Below are positions 1,879-41,180 of a stretch of 41,180 bases of DNA, in pieces. This DNA comes from a virus, in IMG/VR virus record IMGVR_UViG_3300010354_000197, positions 1 through 41,180 of that record; one strand, 5' to 3'. The notes below the pieces were generated by a model, which saw only the letters and a list, made by a program, of their open reading frames with translations, was not told the origin of the DNA and searched no databases. Within the stretch, counting starts at the first letter, position 1; the number at the start of each line of letters is the position of its first letter. A program made the translations under genes and the position numbers.

Positions 1879-2207
1879 CTAACGAACACACAAAGATTAC
1901 ATCAACACACCCGATTGATGATGATATTGTTATGATCAATGGTGTAAAATACCAACGAATTGTAGAAAAACCAAAACCACAGACACTTTATGATATTATT
2001 CGTGAGTGGAATGATAATGAAGATTACCCAACTTGTGAAGAACTTGTGAATAGAATTGAGAAATGGTTGCCTCTTGAAGGTTGTCGCGAACTAAAAAGTT
2101 ATGAGTATAGTGCTGGTTGGAATGATTGTTTAAAAACTATCAAGACCAATCTCAGACCATCGCAAGAATTAGACCCAGAAAATCTGCCGTATTTTGTAGG
2201 TAACTGA
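1875..2207 (+). CDS. Paralogue of the TLY/GWNDC small-protein family
   Basis: 110 residues with the complete family layout: a beta hairpin around INGVKYQRI, the PQTLYDII helix, an IEKWLP helix and a C-terminal SAGWNDC-LKTIK helix. It is the most compact member and so best defines the family. Its start overlaps the stop of the previous paralogue. Function unknown. Confidence 0.65.
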   Translation: MTNEHTKITSTHPIDDDIVMINGVKYQRIVEKPKPQTLYDIIREWNDNEDYPTCEELVNRIEKWLPLEGCRELKSYEYSAGWNDCLKTIKTNLRPSQELDPENLPYFVGN

Positions 2208-2208
2208 G

Positions 2209-2388
2209 ATGACTAACGAACCATCAGACACAGAAATCCTTGAATTTCTACTCAATCAATTCAAGATTTATTCTGCTAATATGAACGGGCAACACGATTG
2301 GATTTTTAATCATCGTGGATTTCCTATGAACCACGCAAAAGGTAGAACTGCCCGTGATGCCGTAATTACCGCAATGAGGGCAAAATGA
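2209..2388 (+). CDS. Small unknown protein
   Basis: 59 residues beginning MTNEPSD, with a helical N-terminal half and a basic C-terminus (HAKGRTARDAV). One base separates it from the previous stop, and its TGA overlaps the next ATG. The second half (HDWIFNHRGF...GRTARDAVITAMR) reads like a small nucleic-acid-associated module, but this is only an impression. Confidence 0.55.
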   Translation: MTNEPSDTEILEFLLNQFKIYSANMNGQHDWIFNHRGFPMNHAKGRTARDAVITAMRAK

Positions 2389-2573
2389 AACCGATGAGAC
2401 ATAAATGGACTATTCAAACCTCCATTAGTGTTTTTGAATATTGCTTATACACTTGGAGAGGAACTATGTATCCTCATTTGGATGGTTTTAAAAATCCAGA
2501 TAACTTGAGAATACAGTTCTTTTATTATTTGAATTATGGTATGACTGGAAACGAAGCAAACTTACAGGAGTGA
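2385..2573 (+). CDS. Small unknown protein
   Basis: 62 residues, rich in aromatic residues (FEYCLYTW, FFYYLNY). No transmembrane segment is clear. It starts in an ATGA overlap and lies 3 nt before the next gene. No family recognised. Confidence 0.55.
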   Translation: MKPMRHKWTIQTSISVFEYCLYTWRGTMYPHLDGFKNPDNLRIQFFYYLNYGMTGNEANLQE

Positions 2574-2576
2574 AAA

Positions 2577-2939
2577 ATGAACTTTGATTATTGTAGAGAA
2601 ACATCATTACCAGGATGTGGTGCTCCTTCTTCATATCCTTATACATACCATTTTCAATTTTCTTTATCTTATGATGAAATTAGAAAAGTTTATCATAAGT
2701 ATGGATATGAAGATATTGATAGTTTTATATCCTTATTTGGTACAAACATAGATGAGTTTTATAAAATCTTAGCATCCATAGAACTCATTAGAGATGCTAT
2801 TTCAAGTGATAAGGTTGACCTGGGTATTGACTATAAGAAAAAGTATGATGAACTTGTAGAACTTCTTGAACCTCATAAGATTGATGAGAGTATGGAACCA
2901 TCAACAACACTCAAAATACTACTCAAATACAACAAATGA
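2577..2939 (+). CDS. Unknown protein
   Basis: 120 residues. The N-terminus has two Cys (YCRETSLPGCG) and an aromatic patch; the second half is helical and charged. The stop is coupled by ATGA to the gene at 2936. No recognised domain. Confidence 0.6.
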   Translation: MNFDYCRETSLPGCGAPSSYPYTYHFQFSLSYDEIRKVYHKYGYEDIDSFISLFGTNIDEFYKILASIELIRDAISSDKVDLGIDYKKKYDELVELLEPHKIDESMEPSTTLKILLKYNK

Positions 2940-3142
2940 CTTACGAAGAGTTTTTGAATATTCCAGGAGGTGTTTTCAAAGATTTGCAAACTATCCTTAT
3001 CTTGAAATCCAAGTATAATATGGACACTACTTCTGAAGAAAGAGAAATCTGGGAACATATAAAAAGGTTTGATGAAGAACAATCTAAATCTGCCGACCTC
3101 AGAATGCTAAAACGAAAACTTGAAGAACTTTTTAAAAAATGA
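2936..3142 (+). CDS. Small charged helical protein
   Basis: 68 residues with a Lys/Glu-rich helical C-terminal half (MLKRKLEELFKK). ATGA overlaps at both ends. Two antisense open frames cover it but have no supporting context. Function unknown. Confidence 0.55.
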   Translation: MTYEEFLNIPGGVFKDLQTILILKSKYNMDTTSEEREIWEHIKRFDEEQSKSADLRMLKRKLEELFKK

Positions 3143-4360: not shown

Positions 4361-4518
4361 CTGAAGAACAGAAAGAGAGGGCAATCAGTTTTGCACTTGA
4401 TTTGTTGGACCTTATAGAAAATGAACAAGTAGTTGGAGATTGGGAAACCTTTATTTGTAAGGGTGCATCCGATATTCTCATTGAACTTGTTAGTCAAAAT
4501 ATGGATAAAAAGAAATGA
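4357..4518 (+). CDS. Small acidic helical protein
   Basis: 53 residues, helical, acidic, with a Lys-rich tail. ATGA overlaps at both ends support real translation. Function unknown. Confidence 0.5.
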   Translation: MTEEQKERAISFALDLLDLIENEQVVGDWETFICKGASDILIELVSQNMDKKK

Positions 4519-4607
4519 CTGAGTTTCTTATGATTGTTATGATTGTTTATATGGGAGGTTCTATGTTTTTGGGACTACTTGAATACTTTATGGATAGAAA
4601 AAAATGA
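4515..4607 (+). CDS. Membrane mini-protein
   Basis: 30 residues, of which about 20 form a hydrophobic Met/Ile/Val/Leu segment, followed by a short basic tail (MDRKK). Likely a single membrane helix. Starts and stops in ATGA overlaps. Confidence 0.45.
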   Translation: MTEFLMIVMIVYMGGSMFLGLLEYFMDRKK

Positions 4608-4645
4608 CTGAACAAAATACTTTACAGGAACTAAACAATGATTAA
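4604..4645 (+). CDS. Possible 13-residue leader peptide
   Basis: A 13-codon frame starting in an ATGA overlap and ending just inside the ATG of the gene at 4638. Its only support is the overlap pattern; it may exist to couple translation. Confidence 0.2.
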   Translation: MTEQNTLQELNND

Positions 4646-4820
4646 AATCAGAAATGAATGGGAAACTATAGAAAATGGATTTAATTTTTATCCCTTAACT
4701 GATAAGAATAATTTTGGATTTGTTTTTCGTTTTGGTAAAAAATTACCACAATCAAACTATAGAGAAAAAGCATTATTTTTTCGTTATTCTAAATATTCAA
4801 AAAATGGTTTATTTATATAG
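4638..4820 (+). CDS. Small unknown protein
   Basis: 60 residues with many aromatic and basic residues, probably beta-rich (NFGFVFRFGKKLP). A CAGGAA Shine-Dalgarno lies upstream. The gene is followed by about 40 nt without coding, unusual for this stretch. Confidence 0.5.
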   Translation: MIKIRNEWETIENGFNFYPLTDKNNFGFVFRFGKKLPQSNYREKALFFRYSKYSKNGLFI

Positions 4821-4863
4821 TAAAAGCAACCGAGTGTCTCACAAAAAAGCTGGAGGAAATAAA

Positions 4864-5013
4864 ATGACTGAACATAAAAGAAATTACAAAGGAATAAAAT
4901 ACACTGTTCCACAATCTGTTATTGATGATTTGAAAAATCTTCACGGCGTGGATGCCTTTAAAGAAATAGAAGATATGTTAGAAAGGGAAATCAAATCAAA
5001 AGAGGAAAAATGA
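4864..5013 (+). CDS. Small basic/acidic helical protein
   Basis: 49 residues from ATG 4864, chosen because of the strong GGAGG eight bases upstream; the frame is open further 5' but that part overlaps the previous gene. The KYTVPQSVIDDLKNL stretch and the acidic helix after it resemble a small ribbon-helix-helix-like fold, an inference only. ATGA overlap to the next gene. Confidence 0.55.
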   Translation: MTEHKRNYKGIKYTVPQSVIDDLKNLHGVDAFKEIEDMLEREIKSKEEK

Positions 5014-5564
5014 TTAAACAAGAAAAATTTTATTCAATTGACTTTGAAAAACTCAAAGGAGAAGGTATGGATACCATAGCATACTTTCTTGGTATTATGA
5101 GTTATAATGAAGATTATAAGTATTTTGATAAAATCAAACATCTTTTAGATATTCCAGAAAAACCTAAAACTCTGGAAGAACTACAACAAGAACTGGATGA
5201 GAAGTTTGATGACCTTTTGGTAAAAACCAAGAGGAAATTTGCAGTATCTCAACAAAGTGCAGAGTATCATTATAATCAAAAGTTCAAAAAGATTAATGAT
5301 AACTTTGAGTATATAAAGAAGTGGGGACACTTTCCACTCGTTACATTTGTACCAGGAGGGGAGATTTTATTGAATAGTGATAATTACTTGGTTACCAATT
5401 CTAGTTCTTTAGGGTGGAAAAGTGTGTATACGATTGGTAGTGGAGATTCTGGTTATTATACCAATGGAACAGAATTAAGGATTTCTATGCCTAAGAAACC
5501 AAATTTGATTGTGAGAACTTTTACGTGGATTTGTCTGGGATTTAAGTGGGTGAATAAGAAATGA
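5010..5564 (+). CDS. Unknown 184-residue protein
   Basis: The N-terminal two thirds are charged and helical (TLEELQQELDEKFDDLL), the C-terminal third is beta-like with Gly/Ser/Tyr and ends in a basic WVNKK. The same WVNKK ending closes the next protein, hinting at a duplicated gene end. No recognised family. Confidence 0.65.
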   Translation: MIKQEKFYSIDFEKLKGEGMDTIAYFLGIMSYNEDYKYFDKIKHLLDIPEKPKTLEELQQELDEKFDDLLVKTKRKFAVSQQSAEYHYNQKFKKINDNFEYIKKWGHFPLVTFVPGGEILLNSDNYLVTNSSSLGWKSVYTIGSGDSGYYTNGTELRISMPKKPNLIVRTFTWICLGFKWVNKK

Positions 5565-15151: not shown

Positions 15152-15199
15152 TTAGAACGATAGACGTTCTAACCACACATATTCTAAGGAGTTTAGAAT
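15152..15199 (+). promoter_or_regulatory. Two-hairpin leader with Shine-Dalgarno in a loop
   Basis: TTAGAACG (15152-15159) and CGTTCTAA (15165-15172) form a perfect 8-bp stem with loop ATAGA. Then ATTCTAA (15181-15187), loop GGAGT, and TTAGAAT (15193-15199) form a second perfect stem whose loop is the Shine-Dalgarno and whose 3' arm runs into the ATG. The same plan precedes the gene at 17356 with different paired bases. The first stem could also be a DNA operator close to the transcription start. Confidence 0.7.
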
Positions 15200-16220
15200 G
15201 ACTAAAAAATACGATGTAATTGTTTTTATTGGAAGATTTCAACCGTTCCATAATGCCCATCTGGAAATCATCAAACGGGCAACGGAACTCGCAGAACACA
15301 CCGTGATTATTGTTGGTTCTGCAAATCAACCAAGGACTTTCAAAAATCCCTTCACTTATGATGAAAGGGAACGAGTAATCCAAGATACTCTAATGAGTTT
15401 GGATGCAAAATTCAGTATTCACCCAAATCACGATACCATCTATAATGATGATGCGTGGGCAGCAAGGGTTCAGAGTATTGTAAATGAAGTAAACCTTGAT
15501 AATAGTGAGAACATTGGAATTATTGGTCATAAGAAAGATGAAAGTTCTTTCTACCTTGATATGTTCCCGCAGTGGGAGTTGGTAGAAGTTCCTTTGATTG
15601 AGGAACTCAGTGCTACTCAAATCCGCAAACTTTACTTCACCGAAAACTTCAATCCCAACTTTATCAAAAATGTTGTTCCTTACTATGTTCTTGTAGACCT
15701 TCTTGGATTTGCTAAGACGGAAGATTATAACCAAATCCTTCGTGAGATTGATTTTGTTGAGAAATACAAATCCCAGTATGCATTCTTCCCCTATCCACCG
15801 ACCTTTGTGACCGTAGACGGGGTTGTGGTGCAGTCGGGGCACGTTCTGATGATCCGTCGTCGTGCCGAACCTGGAAAGGGTCTTCTTGCCCTTCCTGGAG
15901 GGTTTCTGGATGCTCTGAGCGACAAATCACTAGAGGATGCAGTCATCCGAGAACTACGAGAAGAAACAAATCTTAAAGTTCCAAGTCCTGTTCTTCGTGG
16001 TAACATTGTAGAACACAAGGTCTTTGATGCACTTGAACGCAGCACACGAGGAAGAACAATCACTCACGCATTCCACATCAAACTTCCAAACGGAGAACTA
16101 CCAAAAATCAAAGGTGGAAGTGATGCTGCATCTGCAAAATGGATTCCGATTTCTAAAATCAATCCAAGTGAATGCTTTGAGGATCACTACGAAATCATCA
16201 ACTATTTTACTGGGGTATAA
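15198..16220 (+). CDS. nadM: Bifunctional NMN adenylyltransferase-Nudix hydrolase
   Basis: 340 residues. The N-terminal domain joins NMN and ATP to make NAD+: GRFQPFHNAH (12-21) holds the HxxH nucleotidyltransferase motif and SATQIRK (about 139) matches the second motif. The C-terminal domain (about 205-340) has a Nudix box GGFLDA...RELREETN (about 234-259), which in this family cleaves ADP-ribose and related compounds. The length and order match cyanobacterial slr0787-type and phage NadM-Nudix proteins. The next gene starts 2 nt later, making an operon with NADAR and macro-domain genes. With the NAMPT at 17356 it completes a two-step NAD+ route from nicotinamide. Confidence 0.92.
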   Translation: MTKKYDVIVFIGRFQPFHNAHLEIIKRATELAEHTVIIVGSANQPRTFKNPFTYDERERVIQDTLMSLDAKFSIHPNHDTIYNDDAWAARVQSIVNEVNLDNSENIGIIGHKKDESSFYLDMFPQWELVEVPLIEELSATQIRKLYFTENFNPNFIKNVVPYYVLVDLLGFAKTEDYNQILREIDFVEKYKSQYAFFPYPPTFVTVDGVVVQSGHVLMIRRRAEPGKGLLALPGGFLDALSDKSLEDAVIRELREETNLKVPSPVLRGNIVEHKVFDALERSTRGRTITHAFHIKLPNGELPKIKGGSDAASAKWIPISKINPSECFEDHYEIINYFTGV

Positions 16221-16222
16221 CA

Positions 16223-16747
16223 ATGTTTAAAGAACAAAACTTTCTAGAAAAATATAATCAATACGTGTTCTTCTATAATGGATTTCTGTCGAACTGGGCA
16301 GATACTCCATTCATGGACACTCGCACCGGGATTCCTTATAATTGCTCTGAGCAATACATGATGCATCAGAAAGCACTGATGTTTAACGACCACGATATTG
16401 CTCAAAAGATTCTGCAGAAGAAATTCCCAGGAGATCAAAAAGCACTTGGTCGTAAGGTTAAGGGTTTTGAAAAAGAAGCATGGGATAAACGTGCCCGTGA
16501 TATTGTCTATCAGGGTTGTTATTACAAATTCACACAGAACAAGGATGCTTATGAATATCTTATGAGTACCAAAGATCATTATCTTGTAGAAGCATCACCT
16601 TTTGATACTGTTTGGGGAATTGGTCTTGGTGGTTATGAAGAAGGAGTTAATGATCCTAAAAATTGGAAAGGTACTAACTGGTTGGGTCAGGTTCTTACAC
16701 AACTTCGTGAAGATTTGGAAGGCAGACCAGAACTCATTATGTTTTGA
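16223..16747 (+). CDS. NADAR domain protein (ADP-ribose N-glycosidase-like)
   Basis: 174 residues covering one NADAR (YbiA-like) domain: FLSNWAD, YNCSEQYMMHQKA, ALGRKVKGF, KFTQN, LVEASPFDTVWGIGL and NWKGTNWLGQVL are all family signatures. NADAR proteins studied so far remove ADP-ribose from nucleobases, notably guanine in DNA, and were first predicted to act on NAD or riboflavin intermediates. Its place between NAD+ synthesis and a macro domain suggests reversal of ADP-ribosylation by host defence. The stop overlaps the possible TTG start of the next gene. Confidence 0.9.
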   Translation: MFKEQNFLEKYNQYVFFYNGFLSNWADTPFMDTRTGIPYNCSEQYMMHQKALMFNDHDIAQKILQKKFPGDQKALGRKVKGFEKEAWDKRARDIVYQGCYYKFTQNKDAYEYLMSTKDHYLVEASPFDTVWGIGLGGYEEGVNDPKNWKGTNWLGQVLTQLREDLEGRPELIMF

Positions 16748-16749
16748 TT

Positions 16750-17277
16750 ATGAAAACCATTCACGGAAATCTGATTACTCTTGCTGAACAAGGTGAGTTT
16801 AATATGATTGTGCAGGGATGTAATTGCTTTCATACACAATCTTCTGGTCTTGCAGGACAACTTGCAAGTAAATATCCACAAGTGTTGGAAGCAGATAAAA
16901 CACAAACTGAATATGGAGACAGAGAAAAATTAGGAACTTGGAGTGTTGCTATAGTTGGCAACTTTAGTGTTATTAACGCATACACTCAATATACTTTTAG
17001 TCGTGAAAAGGATGTTTTTGAATATGATGCTTTTGATAAATTCTTGAATGACTTCAGAAATATGATAGAATATTATGATTCAGTAGCAAATTTTTACTGG
17101 AAACCAGATGGAAATAATGTTCGTTTTCGTGAGTTTGAGAAGTTTAGAATTGGTTTTCCTCAAATCGGTGCTGGACTTGCTGGTGGTGATTGGAGTAGAA
17201 TCTCCAAGATGATTGAGAAGTTCTCAGAAGATGTAAAAGATTATGCTGAGGTCACGGTGGTTATCTATCAACCTTAG
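16750..17277 (+). CDS. Macro domain protein (ADP-ribose binding or hydrolase)
   Basis: 175 residues from ATG 16750 (TTG at 16744 is the alternative). HGNLI, then VQGCNCFHTQSSGLAGQLA (the ADP-ribose-binding loop), then RIGFPQIGAGLAGGDW (the phosphate loop) define a macro domain; Asn in QGCNC fits catalytic members. The family removes ADP-ribose from proteins or, in DarG, from thymidine in DNA. It directly follows the NADAR gene, so the two may reverse different ADP-ribose marks. Confidence 0.88.
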   Translation: MKTIHGNLITLAEQGEFNMIVQGCNCFHTQSSGLAGQLASKYPQVLEADKTQTEYGDREKLGTWSVAIVGNFSVINAYTQYTFSREKDVFEYDAFDKFLNDFRNMIEYYDSVANFYWKPDGNNVRFREFEKFRIGFPQIGAGLAGGDWSRISKMIEKFSEDVKDYAEVTVVIYQP

Positions 17278-17308
17278 TCAGGTGTAAAGACTCTAAAACA
17301 CAAAAAGT

Positions 17309-17357
17309 CCTTTGGATAGACCGAAGGTATCACTATACATTTTAAGGAGTTTAAAAT
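17309..17357 (+). promoter_or_regulatory. Two-hairpin leader of the NAMPT gene
   Basis: CCTTTGG (17309-17315), loop ATAGA, CCGAAGG (17321-17327): same loop as the first hairpin before nadM, different stem. Then ATTTTAA (17339-17345), loop GGAGT, TTAAAAT (17351-17357): same Shine-Dalgarno loop as before nadM, with a C-G pair replaced by T-A. The changed but still paired bases support an RNA structure. A TATACAT at about 17334 could be a -10 box. Confidence 0.7.
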
Positions 17358-18732
17358 GACTATTAACAAATCTATTCTACTTAACACAGATTCTTACAAG
17401 TTTTCTCAATTCAATCAGTATCCTCAAGGAACTACGAATGTATATTCCTACGTGGAAAGTCGTGGAGGCAACTGGAAACAAACTGTTTTCTTCGGACTTC
17501 AAATCTTTCTGAAAGAGTATCTGTCTAAACCGATTACTCAAGAAGATATTGATTTTGCAGAAGAACTTATTCTTGCTCACGGAGAACCTTTCAATCGTGA
17601 AGGTTGGGAATATATCCTTAAGGTTCACGGTGGTAGGTTGCCTATTCGCATCAAAGCAGTTCCTGAAGGTTCTGTAATCCCTGTGAAGAATGTTTTGGTT
17701 ACTGTGGAAAATACAGATACAAAATGCTGGTGGTTAACTAGTTATATTGAATCCTCCCTTCTTCGGAGTATTTGGTACGGCACTACGGTTGCGACCAACT
17801 CTTATGAGAGTAAGAGAATTATTCACGATTACTTAGTGAAAACTGGAGATCCTAGCACCATTGAGTTCAAACTACAAGACTTTGGGCTTCGCGGGGTGTC
17901 CTCTTTCGAGTCTGCTGGTATTGGTGGTCTTGCCCACCTTATCAACTTTCAAGGGACTGATACCGTAACTGCTCTGCTTTATGGTAAGAAATACTACAAC
18001 ATTAATATGGCGGGATTTTCTATTCCTGCTATGGAACACAGCACTGTGACTTCGTGGGGTCGGGAAGGTGAGGTAGATTCTTACCGCAATATGGTGAAAC
18101 TCTACGGCAAACCTGGAGCACTTTTTGCTGCTGTGAGTGATAGTTACGACATCTACGAAGCGTGCCGTAAATGGGGTACAGTTCTCAAGGATGATGTAAT
18201 CAACTCTGGTGCGACTCTTGTAGTCCGTCCTGATAGTGGTTATCCTCCTGAGGTTGTGGTAAACTGCCTTCAGATTCTTGATACTCACTATGGTCACACT
18301 GTGAACGATAAGGGTTTCAAGGTTCTTAATCACGTCCGCATTATTCAGGGTGATGGTATTACTCAAGATACCATTGACCGCATTCTCTACCGTGCGATGA
18401 CTGCCGGATACTCGGCAGATAACATTGCTTTCGGTCAGGGTGGTAAACTTCTTCAAGGTGTTGACCGTGATACTCAGAAGTTTGCGATGAAGTGCTCGTC
18501 TGTTGAAGTCAATGGACAACAGCGTGATGTTTATAAGAGTCCGATTACCGATATGGGTAAAGAATCCAAGAAAGGTCGTGTAACTCTCTATCGTAATGAT
18601 GAAGGATACTTCACTGACCTTGAGGGTAGGACTGATGCTCAAGAAGTTCTTGAAACTGTGTTTGAGAATGGGGAAATCGTCAAAGAGTATACCTTTGATG
18701 AAGTCCGACAAAATGCTTCCAAGATTGTCTGA
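17356..18732 (+). CDS. nadV: Nicotinamide phosphoribosyltransferase
   Basis: 458 residues, the normal length for bacterial and phage NadV/NAMPT. It makes NMN from nicotinamide and PRPP, feeding the NadM enzyme upstream. Clear signatures: the N-terminal DSYKFSQFNQYPQGTTNVYSYVESRG, DFGLRGVSSFESAGIGG, FQGTDTV, HSTVTSWGRE and VVRPDSGYPPEVV around the PRPP and nicotinamide sites. It has its own two-hairpin leader and ends at a strong terminator. The NAMPT plus NMN adenylyltransferase pair is the phage NAD+ reconstitution pathway 2 known to defeat NAD-depleting defences. Confidence 0.95.
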   Translation: MTINKSILLNTDSYKFSQFNQYPQGTTNVYSYVESRGGNWKQTVFFGLQIFLKEYLSKPITQEDIDFAEELILAHGEPFNREGWEYILKVHGGRLPIRIKAVPEGSVIPVKNVLVTVENTDTKCWWLTSYIESSLLRSIWYGTTVATNSYESKRIIHDYLVKTGDPSTIEFKLQDFGLRGVSSFESAGIGGLAHLINFQGTDTVTALLYGKKYYNINMAGFSIPAMEHSTVTSWGREGEVDSYRNMVKLYGKPGALFAAVSDSYDIYEACRKWGTVLKDDVINSGATLVVRPDSGYPPEVVVNCLQILDTHYGHTVNDKGFKVLNHVRIIQGDGITQDTIDRILYRAMTAGYSADNIAFGQGGKLLQGVDRDTQKFAMKCSSVEVNGQQRDVYKSPITDMGKESKKGRVTLYRNDEGYFTDLEGRTDAQEVLETVFENGEIVKEYTFDEVRQNASKIV

Positions 18733-23349: not shown

Positions 23350-23369
23350 ATATTACAACTTTCGTTCAG

Positions 23370-23442
23370 CCAAATTGGCCGGAAGTAGCTCTTTAGAGTG
23401 AAGGAACGCGATTTATCCACCCGTTTCTTTGGAGGAAAACTC
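23370..23442 (+). promoter_or_regulatory. Structured leader upstream of a strong Shine-Dalgarno
   Basis: The 90 nt before the gene at 23443 hold several possible stems: GCTCTTTAGAGT, GGAACG (about 23403) with CGTTTC (about 23423), and TCCA with TGGA spanning the GGAGG. The last would hide the Shine-Dalgarno, so alternatives could control translation. Composition differs from the surrounding genes. Confidence 0.4.
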
Positions 23443-24344: not shown

Positions 24345-24411
24345 GAGGTGTCTACGGATCAGTCTTGTTAGTGGTGGTTTTAGGTAAAATTTGAGAATAA
24401 ACAAAGTTTTT

Positions 24412-24777
24412 ATGAATTACCAACAAAAACTAGCCGCCGCCCAAAACCCAAACACCCCAACAAAAACACTAGAACTCCTGGCGAGCGATGAATATTCTTA
24501 TGTTCGCTACTGGGTTGCACAAAACCCAAACACCCCAACAAAAACCCTAGAACAATTAGCGACTGATAAAGATTCTTATGTTCGCTCCTGGGTTGCACGA
24601 AATCCAAACACCCCAACAAAAACTCTAGAACAATTAGCGACTGATAAAGATCCTTATGTTCGCTTCTGCGTTGCACAAAATCCAAACAGAACCGAAATTA
24701 TTGAACGGTTAGTTTTTATGACGGATTATAAACTGTCCACTCAACCCAAAATCCCTGACCATACATTTTATCTTTAA
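24412..24777 (+). CDS. LRV (leucine-rich repeat variant) protein
   Basis: 121 residues from ATG 24412 (MNYQQKL, the same start as the copy at 40839). Three tandem repeats of 26 residues, each NPNTPTKTLE-LLA-SD-YVR-VA, match the LRV family of helical repeats that form a right-handed solenoid and bind proteins. The fourth repeat is broken (NPNRTEIIERL). DNA identity between units is high (78-bp period), so repeat number can change by recombination. Confidence 0.75.
   Translation: MNYQQKLAAAQNPNTPTKTLELLASDEYSYVRYWVAQNPNTPTKTLEQLATDKDSYVRSWVARNPNTPTKTLEQLATDKDPYVRFCVAQNPNRTEIIERLVFMTDYKLSTQPKIPDHTFYL
24436..24690 (+). repeat. 78-bp tandem repeats
   Basis: Three units of about 78 bp, each starting with CCAAACACCCCAACAAAAAC. 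A homologous array starts at 40870. Confidence 0.85.
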
Positions 24778-26107: not shown

Positions 26108-26112
26108 TACAT

Positions 26113-26199
26113 GCTCCTCTGGTGGAATTGGCATACACGACGATCTTAAAATTCGTTGAGGACATTACCCTCTTGCGAGTTCAAGTCTCGCGGGGAGCA
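26113..26199 (+). tRNA. tRNA-Leu (anticodon UAA)
   Basis: 87 nt. Acceptor arms GCTCCTC and GGGGAGC pair, with discriminator A at 26199. The anticodon loop is CTTAAAA, giving UAA. A long variable arm and a T-arm (GCGAG-TTCAAGT-CTCGC) complete a type II tRNA. CCA is not encoded, so the CCA-adding enzyme at 28032 or the host must add it. One mismatch is present at the base of the anticodon stem. Confidence 0.93.
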
Positions 26200-26218
26200 T
26201 AAAACAGCCAACAACCAC

Positions 26219-33396: not shown

Positions 33397-33942
33397 ATGG
33401 CAAAAAAGAAACCTCCTAAGTTCCAACTTCTTAAAGAACTTTCTTTTGAAGATATTATTGTCTCGGACAAAATATATCCGTCTAGATTTTTGGGTACAAC
33501 TAAAAGAATTAAACTTTTTAAGAAGATTGGATACACTTGTGTTTCTTGTGGTAGATGTGCCGTTAAATTGAGGAAGTATAAGGATCAAAGACAAGATAGA
33601 ATTTTCTGGTCAATTCTATCATCTGATGATATAGAAATTACAATTGATCATATAACCCCTAAAATATTGGGAGGAAAAAATAATATCGAAAATCTTCAAC
33701 CGATGTGTCGGTTGTGTAATCTAGAAAAAGGTAGTGGAATTGATGTAGTTCCTTTTATAAGTTACAGAGGACCCATTGAGGGTAGGGAGCTTTACATAAA
33801 GTCTCATAGGAAATTAATATATAAAGGAATTATTGAAAAAATCGATATTAACCCCCATACTCAAAAAGACGAAATCTTTATTGTTAGCGAAAGAGGATCC
33901 TCATACAAAATAAACAAAAAAGCCTACATTAAACAATCATGA
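33397..33942 (+). CDS. Free-standing HNH endonuclease
   Basis: 181 residues. CVSC (about 49-52) and a later CRLC bind one zinc; the motif IDHITPKILGGKNNIENLQ with the catalytic His of DHI and an Asn-rich core is the HNH nuclease fold. A C-terminal basic beta domain (about 120-181) may bind DNA. No intron surrounds it, so it is a free-standing homing-type gene. It lies 2.9 kb before an endonuclease-less group I intron. Overlaps the next gene (ATGA). Confidence 0.85.
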   Translation: MAKKKPPKFQLLKELSFEDIIVSDKIYPSRFLGTTKRIKLFKKIGYTCVSCGRCAVKLRKYKDQRQDRIFWSILSSDDIEITIDHITPKILGGKNNIENLQPMCRLCNLEKGSGIDVVPFISYRGPIEGRELYIKSHRKLIYKGIIEKIDINPHTQKDEIFIVSERGSSYKINKKAYIKQS

Positions 33943-34324: not shown

Positions 34325-35380
34325 ATGACTTCACAAAGTCCGAGAATTTACACGTATAAGATTACGTTTGAAGAAGTCCCTCATTATTATTACGGGTATC
34401 ATAAAGAAAAGAAATATGGCGAAGAATACTGGGGCTCACCTATAACTCATAAGTGGATGTGGGATTTTTATACCCCAGAGAAACAGATTTTGGAGTTATT
34501 TGAATTTAATGACGAAGGTTATAAAGAGGCGGGGGAAGTTGAAAAGAGATTAATTAGACCTGTTTATAATACAGATCCTTATTGTTTAAATGAAAATTGT
34601 GGCGGAGTACTTTCCATTGATAGTTGTAGAAGGGGTGGAAAAATTAGTGGCAAAATTAGTGGCTTGATATCTGGTCCAAAAACATTAGAACTTGGTATTG
34701 GAATTCACGGGTTAGATGAAAAAAGTCGAATAGAAAATGCTAGAAAAGCCGGATTAATTGGTGGCAAAATAGCCAAAGATATGGGTGTAGGGATACACGC
34801 ACTTACAACTGAAGAAAGAATCGAGGCGGGGAGAAAGGGTGGTCCTATAGGTGGAAAAATAGCAGGGCCAAAAACCTATGAACTCGGTATTGGAATACAC
34901 TCCCTTACTCATGAGGAAATATGCGAAAATGCGAAAAAAGGTGGAATTAAAGCAAGAGAGGAAAATCTAGGCATATTTGCCATGACTTCAGAAGAAAGAA
35001 GTGAGGCTGGAAGAAAAGGTGGTAAAATAAGCGGAGAGCAGCATAAAGAAAACGGAACTGGTATATTTTCTATGACACCAGAGGAATGGAGTGAAGCGGG
35101 TAGAAAAGGTGGTAAAAGTGTATTTGAAAACGGTCTTGGATGTTTTTCTTTAACCCCAGAAGAAAGAGTTGAAGTAAGTCGTAAAGTTGGTCTTAAAGCT
35201 AAAGAAGAAAAGAAGGGAATATTTGCCATGACTGCAGAAGAAAAAGCAGAAAGAAGCAGAAAAGTTGGTCTGCAAAAGTGGAGATGTTTAGTTACAGGAT
35301 ATGTCTCAAATTCTGGCAATTTGTCTCAATTTCAAAAGAAGCATGGTATAGATACTTCACTGCGAGAAAGGATAGAATAA
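34325..35380 (+). CDS. GIY-YIG-like homing endonuclease with NUMOD-type repeats
   Basis: 351 residues. The N-terminal 95 residues (YTYKITF, then HYYYGYHK) and an AGEVEKRLIRP segment fit a diverged GIY-YIG nuclease with its conserved Glu. The rest is a chain of seven repeats of about 32 to 38 residues. Each carries G-hydrophobic-(H/F)-x-(L/M)-T-x-E-E and xEAGRKGG, like NUMOD3 DNA-binding modules. The C-terminus KWRCLVTGYVSN...YQ-like closes the family. Seven modules is a high count and suggests a long recognition site. Preceded by an inverted-repeat structure that may silence early expression. Confidence 0.8.
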   Translation: MTSQSPRIYTYKITFEEVPHYYYGYHKEKKYGEEYWGSPITHKWMWDFYTPEKQILELFEFNDEGYKEAGEVEKRLIRPVYNTDPYCLNENCGGVLSIDSCRRGGKISGKISGLISGPKTLELGIGIHGLDEKSRIENARKAGLIGGKIAKDMGVGIHALTTEERIEAGRKGGPIGGKIAGPKTYELGIGIHSLTHEEICENAKKGGIKAREENLGIFAMTSEERSEAGRKGGKISGEQHKENGTGIFSMTPEEWSEAGRKGGKSVFENGLGCFSLTPEERVEVSRKVGLKAKEEKKGIFAMTAEEKAERSRKVGLQKWRCLVTGYVSNSGNLSQFQKKHGIDTSLRERIE

Positions 35381-35538: not shown

Positions 35539-35802
35539 ATGCAATTTCTCAATAACGTTCGCGCTCAAGATCAAACTGCCCCTGTGACCCTTCTGGTCAA
35601 TGAGGAGGCTTATGCAGTTACCCCGGCTAATTATCAGGGTAAAACTGTTGCCCAACTTTTTGCTCAGTATGCTTCTATTCTGGGCGTTGATGCTTCCCGT
35701 ATCACTGCTTATGTGCTGAATGCTGAGCAAGTTCCTGGTGAAACCATCGTGCGACCATCTGAAGTATATAGAGGGGTCATTACTTCAGAATCAAAGGGTT
35801 GA
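35539..35802 (+). CDS. Beta-grasp ubiquitin-like protein
   Basis: 87 residues from ATG 35539 (a GTG at 35482 would add a leader that overlaps the promoter). VTLLVNEEAYAV, a helix KTVAQLFAQYASIL, a short strand ITAYVLNAE and a last strand YRGVITSE give the order of a beta-grasp fold. It ends SKG rather than GG, so conjugation through the C-terminus is possible but not standard. Its neighbours (JAMM, PRTRC-B-like, E1) match prokaryotic ubiquitin-like systems, in which such a protein is the modifier or sulfur carrier. A strong terminator follows, which allows separate, higher expression. Confidence 0.7.
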   Translation: MQFLNNVRAQDQTAPVTLLVNEEAYAVTPANYQGKTVAQLFAQYASILGVDASRITAYVLNAEQVPGETIVRPSEVYRGVITSESKG

Positions 35803-35865: not shown

Positions 35866-37113
35866 ATGGAAAATCAAATTCTACGAACAGCAAACAACGG
35901 ATGTTTTGAATTTTATACTGGTGGCTGGGGAACTTATCTCCGGAAAATTGATGATCCAGAGGCCAATGTCATCATTGATAAAAACGACCTAGAAACCTTT
36001 ACTCTTAAAGAAGACATTCATCGAATTCCGGCAAGTCTTTGGCAACGTTGGGTTCAACTTTGTTTTCACTTTGTCGAAAAGGTTCCTTCTGATGTAGAAG
36101 TTTCTATCAGGATCCTTCGCAGTGAAGAAGATCCTTCTGTTTATCGGATTGTTGTACCGAAACAGAAAGTTTCTGCGGCATCTGTAAGGGTTGATAGTTT
36201 TCATGATGCTATCGACATTGAATCTGGTGAAGAGATTACCCAATTCCCTCCTATTGGATGGATCCCTGTTGGTAGTTCTCACTCGCATTAATTGTATGGT
36301 GCGAGTAAAACCTCGGTAAATTGCTGGAACATCCTAAAGCCCCAATACCACAACGTAGTTGGAAACGACAAGCGTGAAGGTTTGAAAAGTTTGGGGATAA
36401 TAATGGACAATCAGCAGCGGATACCCTTTAACATGGGGAGCGTTCAGAGACTAGACCCGAGGACACAGATAAATAATTATCTGTGTATGGTATAGTCCGG
36501 TCTATGGTGAAAATCATAGAGTCAGGCAGAAATGACCTGGCCCCACAAATATAATTTGTGTGGTAACAAGACGAATACGATGCAAGCGTTCTTTAGTGGA
36601 ACTGACGATAAATATGAACTTGGCGATCCAGGAATTCATATTGTTGTTGGATCCATTGATGTAAACAAAAGGACCTATCGACTCAAGGCATCTATTGTTG
36701 CCAATGGTCGAAGGTTTGACGTGGATCACGACAAAATTATTGATTGCGATCCAATTGATGATGCCACCTTCCATGAGGATGTTCTCAAATATGTTGATTA
36801 TTCCCGCCCGGTAGTCCATCATAAAAAGGCGACCAGTTTTCAAACTTTTCAACATAAAAGTAATCAAAAGTTCTCTTCTTATGATTATAAATCGCCTTTT
36901 GGGTTCTCGGATGAAATTGATTTTACAGACGATTACTACCGAGAATTTTTTGGCGAAACTGAGGTAATAGAAACCAAACCACTTAAATTGTGGCAAATTG
37001 AGGACGTTATCGAGGACTACATCAAACAAAACAAGGGAAATGTCGAAGAAATTCAGGAACTCATTTCTCTGCTTTCTGTTTATGTTGAAGAACACAGTGA
37101 ACTTTCCATTTAA
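35866..37113 (+). CDS. JAMM/MPN+ metalloprotease, split by a group I intron
   Basis: Two exons, 35866-36288 and 36574-37113, joined in phase 0 give 320 residues. Exon 1 ends with HSH followed by a stop; exon 2 starts NTMQAFF-SGTD. Joined, they make H-S-H-x7-S-x-x-D exactly, the zinc-binding JAMM motif, with Asn in place of the common Pro. Neither half alone has it. In ubiquitin-like systems JAMM enzymes process the modifier or remove it from targets. The N-terminal 140 residues are beta-rich; the C-terminal part is acidic and helical. A downstream ATG within exon 2 (36580) can give an inactive short form. Neighbours are the beta-grasp, PRTRC-B-like and E1 genes. Confidence 0.85.
36289..36573 (+). 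ncRNA. Group I self-splicing intron (285 nt)
   Basis: The 5' splice site follows a U (36288) that pairs with G36299: exon ACTCGCAT and guide GTGCGAGT form an 8-bp P1 ending in the required U-G. The intron ends in G (36573). Conserved elements are present in order: P (about AATTGCTGGAAC, 36319), Q (about AATCAGCAGC, 36409), R (GTTCAGAGACTAGAC, 36442) and S (TATAGTCC, 36491). P4 pairs GCTG with CAGC, P7 pairs ACTA with TAGT, P8 is a perfect 10-bp stem (36463/36477), and P9-like stems follow. Exon 2 can form a short P10 with the guide. It has no open reading frame worth naming. It interrupts the JAMM catalytic motif. Confidence 0.93.
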
Positions 37114-37115
37114 TC

Positions 37116-38132
37116 ATGAACAATCCCATTTTTCCAACTCAACCAGCAACAGTTAGTCTTCATCCGGTTCCAACCCAGGCAGAATTTATTTCTTATCTTG
37201 TTGGGCCAGATACTCTAACCATTAGGGCCTGGATGCCAGACAATTATTCTTCCTTTAAAGAAAATATGTCCCAACAAAGGGCCTATGATACTTTTTATAC
37301 TGATAATTGCGGTGATTGCCCAAGAAATAATCGGTGGTATTATGAAGAAAATCACCCAGAGCTTTTTGATGCTGAAATGTACTGGAGACATAATGAATTT
37401 GACACATTTGTTCATGATAATCCCGGCGAATGTTTTGTTTATTTGAATGGTTATTATGGTCAGAATTGTCCTCTAGGGATTGAGTTTAAAGAGCCAGAAT
37501 CAAACATGTATTCCATTTCAAACATGGTTTTTGACATTCAACTGTCACATAGGGGTCAATTCAAAAAATATACTGATAATGCTCACCTACAGGCCGGTTA
37601 CGTAAATGATTCTGGTGAGGTTTATGAGACCCTTCCAAATTCTGCCGCAAATGTTTATTCTGGAGAAAATGATAGAGACGGATATACTTATGGTAAGATT
37701 TGCTGGAACTCTATTGAGAATCCAACAACGCTACGTGAAATCGTAACGTCCTACTTTGGGTCTAGGTTTAATAATGATCTATTGAGGCTCAGCAGTTTCA
37801 AAAACAACATTACGTCAATAAGAAAGAAAAAAGAAGAAAACAAATATACAAAATCTAACCATAAATTCCTGTGCTCTGGTTATGATTGTCTGCTTATGAT
37901 TGATGGGAGCAAAGACGTTCAGGCCTTCTTTACAATGTTGATGGCCGGATTTAAATCTTTGCCAGAACTTCCTCACATTATGATTGTCCCGGCAAAAACC
38001 TCAACAATCAAACAAGGTGAAATGATTTATTTGGGATATACCACACAGGAAGATGCTGTTGGTAGGTCTTGGTACGTCTCAACCGAAGGTGCCATTATTG
38101 GCCAGCTTGACGACTCCTTTGTGACGGTCTGA
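37116..38132 (+). CDS. PRTRC protein B-like (probable)
   Basis: 338 residues, 2 nt after the JAMM gene. The segment YGKICWNSIENPTTLREIVTSYFGSRFNNDLL and its position before a ThiF-type E1 suggest the PRTRC system protein B, whose exact role is unknown but may be E2-like. The N-terminal half is aromatic and acidic. The assignment rests mainly on neighbourhood and one motif. Confidence 0.5.
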   Translation: MNNPIFPTQPATVSLHPVPTQAEFISYLVGPDTLTIRAWMPDNYSSFKENMSQQRAYDTFYTDNCGDCPRNNRWYYEENHPELFDAEMYWRHNEFDTFVHDNPGECFVYLNGYYGQNCPLGIEFKEPESNMYSISNMVFDIQLSHRGQFKKYTDNAHLQAGYVNDSGEVYETLPNSAANVYSGENDRDGYTYGKICWNSIENPTTLREIVTSYFGSRFNNDLLRLSSFKNNITSIRKKKEENKYTKSNHKFLCSGYDCLLMIDGSKDVQAFFTMLMAGFKSLPELPHIMIVPAKTSTIKQGEMIYLGYTTQEDAVGRSWYVSTEGAIIGQLDDSFVTV

Positions 38133-38201: not shown

Positions 38202-38915
38202 ATGAATTTCAATCCAGATACAGTTTTTATTATTGGTGTTGGTGGAACTGGTGGTTATCTTGCCGCCCCCATTGCTAGGCTGGTTGCTTATCATCAGGCA
38301 ACCCAGGATGCCAAGGTTGTTTTTATTGATGGTGATGAATTTGAAGAACACAATGCAACCCGTCAAATTGTCGGGCCATCACAAATTGGCCTGAACAAGG
38401 CAAAGGCAATGGTTGATTTTTGTTCTTTCCAGGGTCTTAACAACGTTGAATGTAAGGAAGACTTTATTTCAATGACTTCTTTTATTCCAATGTTGAATCA
38501 ATCAAAGACTCCACTGATTATCTGTTCGGTTGATAATGATGCAACCCGGCACGATGTAATTGCGGCAATCCAAATGTCCTGCAAAGAAAAAGATTTCTTC
38601 TTTATCACCCCAGGTAATTCTGATGGGACCGAAGATGTAAAGGGACAGACACTTTGGTTTGGTCGGTGTAATGGTGAAAACGTTGGAATGAATCCGACTC
38701 TGGTTTATCCCAACATTAAAGAACCAATTGATAGTGTTCCCCATAAAGGATCCTGTGCTCTTAATGCACCCTCTCGCCCGCAATTGATCTCAGCGAACTT
38801 TATGGCAGCCGCGATTACTCTTACTGTGATTCAAAACTTCCTTGATGGTATGTTGGATCATAAAAAGAGTGGCATGTTCTTCAATGGCCGCACTCTGATT
38901 ACCTCCATCTCCTGA
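38202..38915 (+). CDS. ThiF/E1-like adenylyltransferase (PRTRC type)
   Basis: 237 residues. A Rossmann ATP site GVGGTGG (12-18), then FIDGDEFEEHNATRQ with the acidic and Arg residues that activate ATP, then a KGSC near residue 189 that could be the transfer Cys or structural. No CxxC zinc loops. Such E1 proteins adenylate the C-terminus of a ubiquitin-like protein, here most likely the product of 35539. The length and order match PRTRC ThiF proteins. Confidence 0.85.
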   Translation: MNFNPDTVFIIGVGGTGGYLAAPIARLVAYHQATQDAKVVFIDGDEFEEHNATRQIVGPSQIGLNKAKAMVDFCSFQGLNNVECKEDFISMTSFIPMLNQSKTPLIICSVDNDATRHDVIAAIQMSCKEKDFFFITPGNSDGTEDVKGQTLWFGRCNGENVGMNPTLVYPNIKEPIDSVPHKGSCALNAPSRPQLISANFMAAAITLTVIQNFLDGMLDHKKSGMFFNGRTLITSIS

Positions 38916-40680: not shown

Positions 40681-40842
40681 ATGACATCACAAGAAGTTAG
40701 ATCTATTGTTAAACAAATTGAGTATGAGCGCCGCCGGCTAGAACTTAAGACAACTCTTATTGAAAAAGGTGTAGAGTTTTATGACAAATTTGGCTGGGGT
40801 TATATTAAGAATGGTGTAAAAAATTATGTCGGAGACCAATGA
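40681..40842 (+). CDS. Small basic helical protein
   Basis: 53 residues. A helical basic N-terminus (RSIVKQIEYERRRLELKT), then KFGWGYIKNGVKNY, similar to the end of the previous protein. Its stop overlaps the next ATG. Confidence 0.55.
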   Translation: MTSQEVRSIVKQIEYERRRLELKTTLIEKGVEFYDKFGWGYIKNGVKNYVGDQ

Positions 40843-41180
40843 ATTATCAACAAAAACTAGCGACCGCCCAAAACCCAAACACCCCAACAAAACCCCTAGA
40901 ACTCCTGGCGAGCGATGAAGATTCTTATGTTCGCCGCTGCGTTGCACAAAACCCAAACACCCCAACAAATACCCTAGAACTCCTGGCGAGCGATGAATAT
41001 TATAGTGTTCGCCGCGGCGTCGCACAAAACCCAAACATCCCAACAAAAACCCTAAAACAATTGGCGACTGATAAAAATTCTTATGTTCGCTACTTCGTTG
41101 CAAAAAACCCAAACACCCCAACAAATACCCTAGAACTCCTGGCGAGCGATAAGGATGTTGATGTTCGCTCCTGGGTTGCA
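40839..41180 (+). CDS. LRV-repeat protein (partial, runs off the window)
   Basis: At least 114 residues, continuing past the end. It starts MNYQQKLATAQNPNTPTK, almost the same as the gene at 24412, and then has four or more 26-residue LRV units. Repeats are near-identical in DNA. So two copies of this gene family lie 16 kb apart in the same genome. Confidence 0.75.
   Translation, partial: MNYQQKLATAQNPNTPTKPLELLASDEDSYVRRCVAQNPNTPTNTLELLASDEYYSVRRGVAQNPNIPTKTLKQLATDKNSYVRYFVAKNPNTPTNTLELLASDKDVDVRSWVA
40870..41180 (+). repeat. 78-bp tandem repeats (incomplete)
   Basis: At least four units with the CCAAACACCCCAACAAA core, homologous to the array at 24436, cut by the window end. Confidence 0.8.

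Follow-up and report, generated by a model that had tools for sequence, protein, structure and literature searches.

The 41,180-nt stretch of the virus record IMGVR_UViG_3300010354_000197 analyzed here (the window) carries a predicted JAMM/JAB metalloprotease gene that is split by a group I intron and flanked by genes of a ubiquitin-like (Ubl) cassette (Table 1). Elsewhere, the window contains a glutamine riboswitch aptamer at 23361-23412 (RF01739, 49.4 bits), a tRNA-Leu gene (anticodon TAA) at 26112-26200, and an NAD-salvage-like gene pair at 15198-18732. The nicotinamide phosphoribosyltransferase of this pair is 61% identical to that of Synechococcus phage B23, and the second gene, judged from its sequence, codes for an NMN adenylyltransferase/NUDIX-like protein. 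Inspection by eye also picked out NPNTPTKTLEQLATDKDSYVRSWVAR-type repeats of a variant HEAT-like kind at 24391-24777 and a repeat array resembling them at 40738-41124.

Table 1. Features of the intron-bearing protease gene and its neighborhood in the window
Feature	Position	Strand	Remarks
Free-standing HNH endonuclease gene	33397-33942	+	PF14279 42.5 bits, PF01844; possible homing nuclease
KGG-repeat protein	34325-35380	+	PF10685 18.9 bits, just below cut-off; possible free-standing-endonuclease-like
Ubiquitin-like (beta-grasp) protein	35539-35802	+	87 aa, ends ESKG; AlphaFold model and PDB fold search
JAMM/JAB exon 1	35866-36288	+	141 aa; Glu78 and HSH metal ligands; open frame, homology to intronless relatives
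P1	36281-36306	+	Exon ACUCGCAU (36281-36288) with internal guide GUGCGAGU (36299-36306)
Group I intron	36289-36573	+	RF00028 63.3 bits; boundaries from the empty allele L002
P10, 5' strand	36291-36297	+	Pairs with 3' exon 36575-36581; 7 bp
P3 (36311-36316/36457-36462)	36311-36462	+	Encloses P4, P5 with extension, and P6; Rfam match, helix check
P4	36321-36326/36412-36417	+	Within P3
P7 (36449-36453/36493-36497)	36449-36497	+	P8 (36463-36470/36479-36486) lies between its strands
P9, P9.1, P9.2 peripheral hairpins	36501-36561	+	Folding, pairing check
JAMM/JAB exon 2	36574-37113	+	179 aa and stop; NTMQAFF S GT D
Conserved 338-aa protein, E2-like candidate	37116-38132	+	Position, gene order
ThiF/E1-like adenylyltransferase	38202-38915	+	PF00899 33.4 bits (cut-off 28.1); PRTRC_ThiF 2e-13

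The best PDB matches of the modeled Ubl protein were mostly ubiquitin-like domains, ubiquitin, SUMO, NEDD8, and ISG15 among them, with E values near 0.001 and mostly just above it. The gene is conserved in related phages. Apart from a few exceptions, the proteins there have a Gly as their last residue or a Gly followed only by one or two variable residues (F, S, LG, VY, AA, RH), as though a number of them were precursors that need trimming. Orthologues of the 338-aa protein in two other contigs, L153 and L167, gave weak Prok-E2_D matches below the cut-off. By eye, L167 also has an IS605/TnpB-like transposase-associated gene (1938-3134, minus strand) near its intron-bearing Ubl cassette. The type 6d operon of Iyer et al. 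2006 (PMC1779556) consists of a Ubl protein, a JAB protein with an extra N-terminal domain, an E1, and an E2-like protein; we infer that this type is the same as PRTRC. The window resembles it in having a Ubl protein with a terminal Gly, a JAMM protein with an N-terminal extension, a ThiF-type E1, and an E2-like candidate. However, its best NCBIfam matches, PRTRC_A at 26.4 bits (cut-off 101.8) and PRTRC_ThiF at 50.1 bits (cut-off 144.75), lie far below the curated cut-offs, and the cassette is therefore termed PRTRC-like, not a member but a divergent relative in phages. Similar proteins occur in few isolated phages.

Read separately, neither exon matched JAB in Pfam, and only the spliced protein matched Prok-JAB, at 24.8 bits against a cut-off of 25. 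This is a warning for annotation: the unspliced gene appears as two unknown proteins, and the JAMM signal is lost. Because the JAMM profile found no match among PDB sequences, a fold search was employed. Queried with a structure predicted for the L002 orthologue, Foldseek returned JAMM/MPN proteins as the best PDB matches (E 1e-4, probability 1.0), among them Rpn11 homologues, AMSH, PfJAMM1, and a bacterial Ubl-deubiquitinase. All 16 homologues compared share the residues of the JAMM/MPN+ motif, E78, H139, H141, S149, and D152. A search of bacterial and archaeal genomes with the JAMM protein confirmed no relatives. The host gene is thus predicted to encode a JAMM/JAB metalloprotease of 320 aa after joining, which resembles eukaryotic ubiquitin-removing proteases and whose most likely role would be to process or remove the Ubl protein encoded next door.

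Several features identify the 285-nt insertion as a group I intron, which is predicted to splice. First, the Rfam covariance model RF00028 matches positions 36279-36519 with 63.3 bits (E 6.9e-14), above its curated gathering score of 50 bits. Second, the folded intron RNA is much more stable than 100 shuffled versions (z -4.5). Third, P3, P4, P5, P6, P7, P8, P9, and P9.1 all pair, so that the core from P3 to P8 is complete with the guanosine site in P7, and P9.2 can be read off the sequence as CACAAAU/AUUUGUG. Finally, the ends are those of the group: P1 is an 8-bp helix that closes with the pair U36288-G36299 and is unchanged in all three copies of the intron described below, the last base is G36573, and P10 is present. 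The original prediction had placed a group I intron at exactly this position, with the U-G pair, the final G, and pairing in P4, P7, and P8, and all of these hold.

The boundaries are well defined. Exon 1 ends in ...GSSHSH, the intron opens with an in-frame stop (TAA), and the frame is picked up at 36574 with NTMQAFFSGTD. Joining the exons, which the intron splits between codons 141 and 142, yields one open frame and restores HSHNTMQAFFSGTD (H-x-H-x7-S-x-x-D). The contig L002 (IMGVR 3300034062_007872) carries the gene without the insertion. Its protein is 92% identical to that of the window, and at its empty site (TCTCACAGCCAC/AACACCATG) the residues of ...TCTCACAGCCAC|AACACCATGCAAGCG... match the predicted junction exactly. 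HSHN is likewise ungapped in all other intronless homologues found. Because these homologues, including L002, read across without a gap, the junction is fixed after 36288 and before 36574. Both the splice sites and the insertion within the JAMM catalytic motif had been foreseen, and the empty allele, the joined HSH-x7-S-GT-D frame, and the fold search bear them out. A 3' splice site at G36570 was also considered and rejected, as it would add a Thr relative to the HSHN of all relatives and abolish the 7-bp P10.

The bases around the junction are recoded. They read TCGCAT|AA(T/C)ACG in all three intron copies, whereas the sister L002 has AGCCAC|AACACC. Between the window and L002 this amounts to six synonymous differences in 12 nt, a clustering with P of 2e-5 relative to the rest of the gene, and at least two base changes are needed to turn a TCN serine codon into an AGY one or back. 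The recoded bases coincide with the exon strands of P1 and P10. They are explained either by short co-conversion of the flanks as the intron arrived or by subsequent selection for pairing. The intronless L139 naturally has TCGCAT|AATACT; therefore, donors with suitable flanks exist.

The JAMM gene was found in 24 contigs, the window included. Three of these carry this intron, one carries a different intron, and 20, some of them near-identical copies, carry none. The second copy (L006) came from the first protein search and the third (L167) from one that used exon 1 alone and presupposes no uninterrupted motif. Both lie at the identical site, score 59.2 and 54.8 bits with RF00028, and are 97.5% and 92.9% identical to the window intron, respectively. 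The host genes are far less alike: the joined coding sequences of L006 and L167 are 80.7% and 58.3% identical to that of the window at the nucleotide level, and 0.34 and 0.59 of the four-fold sites differ. In the protein tree, the window pairs with the intronless L002 as its sister, L006 lies outside that pair, and L167 belongs to another group, which includes the intronless L172 and others. One site, a patchy distribution, and introns much more similar than their hosts fit better with horizontal movement between divergent phages, because vertical descent would need many losses and an intron that evolves many times more slowly than its host gene. Purifying selection on the intron could account for part, hardly all, of the high identity.

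Searches with the intron core yielded only distantly similar introns elsewhere, and an exact 22-mer search returned L006 as its sole match. A fast RF00028 genome scan missed the L006 intron that direct cmscan detects, and absences from that scan were not counted as evidence. The only close copies found are the three at the JAMM site.

Comparison of the three copies revealed five double-sided pair changes that preserve pairing; P5, its extension, P8, P9.1, and P10 contain one apiece. In L167, for instance, a C-G pair in P8 is replaced by U-A, and P9.1 also has a compensatory change. The P10 pair 36296/36576 joins intron and exon; it is A-U in the window but G-C in L006 and G-U in L167, and its exon base occupies the wobble position of the Asn codon. 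The compensatory changes, that in P10 included, show selection on the ribozyme and on both splice sites. Such mutual adjustment of intron and host exon in P10 makes most sense if the exons are ligated at this junction. These observations bear on the idea that the intron is a degenerate relic that no longer splices, leaving the gene dead or expressed as two separately translated proteins. Such a relic would be in keeping with the missing endonuclease, and an in-frame ATG (36532) could start translation of exon 2. However, every core helix is intact, with compensatory changes between copies, the three phages with the intron all keep both exons open and conserved, covariation in P10 matters only if the exons are ligated, and separate translation would strand HSH from the downstream S and D. 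We therefore regard a relic as extremely improbable.

The original prediction had gone further and proposed that splicing gates a deconjugation step, its timing or conditions controlling the protease. The intron does part the catalytic residues and begins with a stop, and an unspliced mRNA is predicted to yield an inactive 141-aa fragment. Were it true, a ribozyme would be linked to a viral ubiquitin-like conjugation pathway via a deubiquitinase-like enzyme, and retention of the intron would be explained. The evidence does not support this claim. The 92%-identical gene of the close relative and most homologues, 20 of 24 contigs in all being uninterrupted, do without the intron, which has been exchanged between distant phages. 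Neither an aptamer beside the intron, in the Rfam scan, nor alternative splice sites were seen. Protease activity does require splicing according to the predicted gene structure, but the same dependence is expected of any intron in any essential coding motif. A regulatory gate is accordingly very unlikely, and no observation favors it over a neutral mobile intron. Neutrality is supported instead by the horizontal spread of the intron and by the fact that most alleles lack it.

None of the three intron copies contains a frame for a homing endonuclease. Because the intron has no endonuclease of its own, movement probably relies on a trans-acting nuclease or on recombination after co-infection. 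In collaborative homing, which is established for phage introns without open reading frames (PMC10448857, PMC3984707), the HNH or the KGG-repeat nuclease upstream would cut the empty JAMM site and drag the intron along. Both nuclease-like genes lie 0.9-2.9 kb upstream of the intron in the window, and the KGG-repeat protein matches phrog_19000 (4e-9) and, at 0.03, the homing endonuclease family phrog_314. However, consistent linkage of either gene to the intron was not found across the intron-bearing phages: L167 has neither gene, and the only matches in L006 are partial, distant, and unlinked. Moreover, a homologue of the HNH gene sits at the same place in L008, beside an intronless JAMM gene. 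This special case of horizontal movement is consequently rather doubtful.

A different group I intron has entered the same motif in L153. At 4427-5550, an insert of about 1.1 kb follows HSHNTMG and contains the group I intron (83 bits) and a LAGLIDADG endonuclease gene (PF14528). Joining GGT to GCA restores HSH-x7-S-x-x-D, the protein match covers both sides of the gene, and the P1 guide GCCCAUA lies near 5286. The insertion site is 12 nt downstream of that of the window intron, so the motif has been invaded twice, independently. The JAMM catalytic motif is thus a recurrent intron target, as would be expected of nucleases directed at invariant codons. In a separate observation, a phage with an intronless JAMM gene (L009/L011/L012/L013; contig 3300016665_000872, about 43475-45888) has several group I introns with LAGLIDADG-like frames, crowded into about 2.5 kb, inside what is apparently, from the sequence, a capsid-type gene.

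Taken together, we favor, with a probability of about 0.92, a mobile and essentially neutral group I intron without an open reading frame that resides in the JAMM gene and is spliced out to give an intact protease mRNA. A compact intron would have invaded the most conserved stretch of the gene, between the codons for the second metal-ligand His and the Asn. After folding of the transcript, guanosine would attack behind U36288 at the U-G pair of P1, and the exons would be ligated at G36573/A36574, guided by P10 and the terminal G, to encode the 320-aa protease. The in-frame UAA at the start of the intron, from what is generally known of phage introns, would keep ribosomes off the ribozyme. The intron would have entered different phages at one site together with an exon tract, between a few bases and roughly a dozen long, that matches its guide, probably via repair of a double-strand break begun by an endonuclease encoded elsewhere. 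Recombination after co-infection is an alternative route, and reverse splicing a possible one.

Phage group I introns, both with and without homing endonuclease genes, occur in T4 td, nrdB, and sunY, in the DNA polymerase genes of SPO1 and Bastille, in Twort nrdE, and in cyanophage psbA. The window intron is like these in its Rfam family, its P1 U-G pair, terminal G, and P10, its place in a conserved coding motif, and its patchy, horizontal spread; it differs in its host gene, a JAMM protease of a Ubl cassette. Introns in Bacillaceae chromosomes and in Flavobacterium, Enterococcus, and Serratia phages are 70-76% identical to it over the half from P3 to P7, but none matches over the full length and their host genes are others. 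Phage group I introns favor conserved protein-coding genes (PMC3984707). A full-text search of a literature collection found no paper naming group I intron, bacteriophage, and JAMM together.

This is therefore a known kind of intron in an unusual host gene. The case is unusually clean, with an empty sister allele, one intron present three times at a single site in very different phages, covariation between exon and intron, and an unrelated intron 12 nt away. The cassette of Ubl, JAMM, E2-like candidate, and E1 genes in large phages has received little study and seems to be almost missing from databases of isolated phages, and the finding adds a protease resembling those of the ubiquitin pathway to the host genes of phage group I introns.
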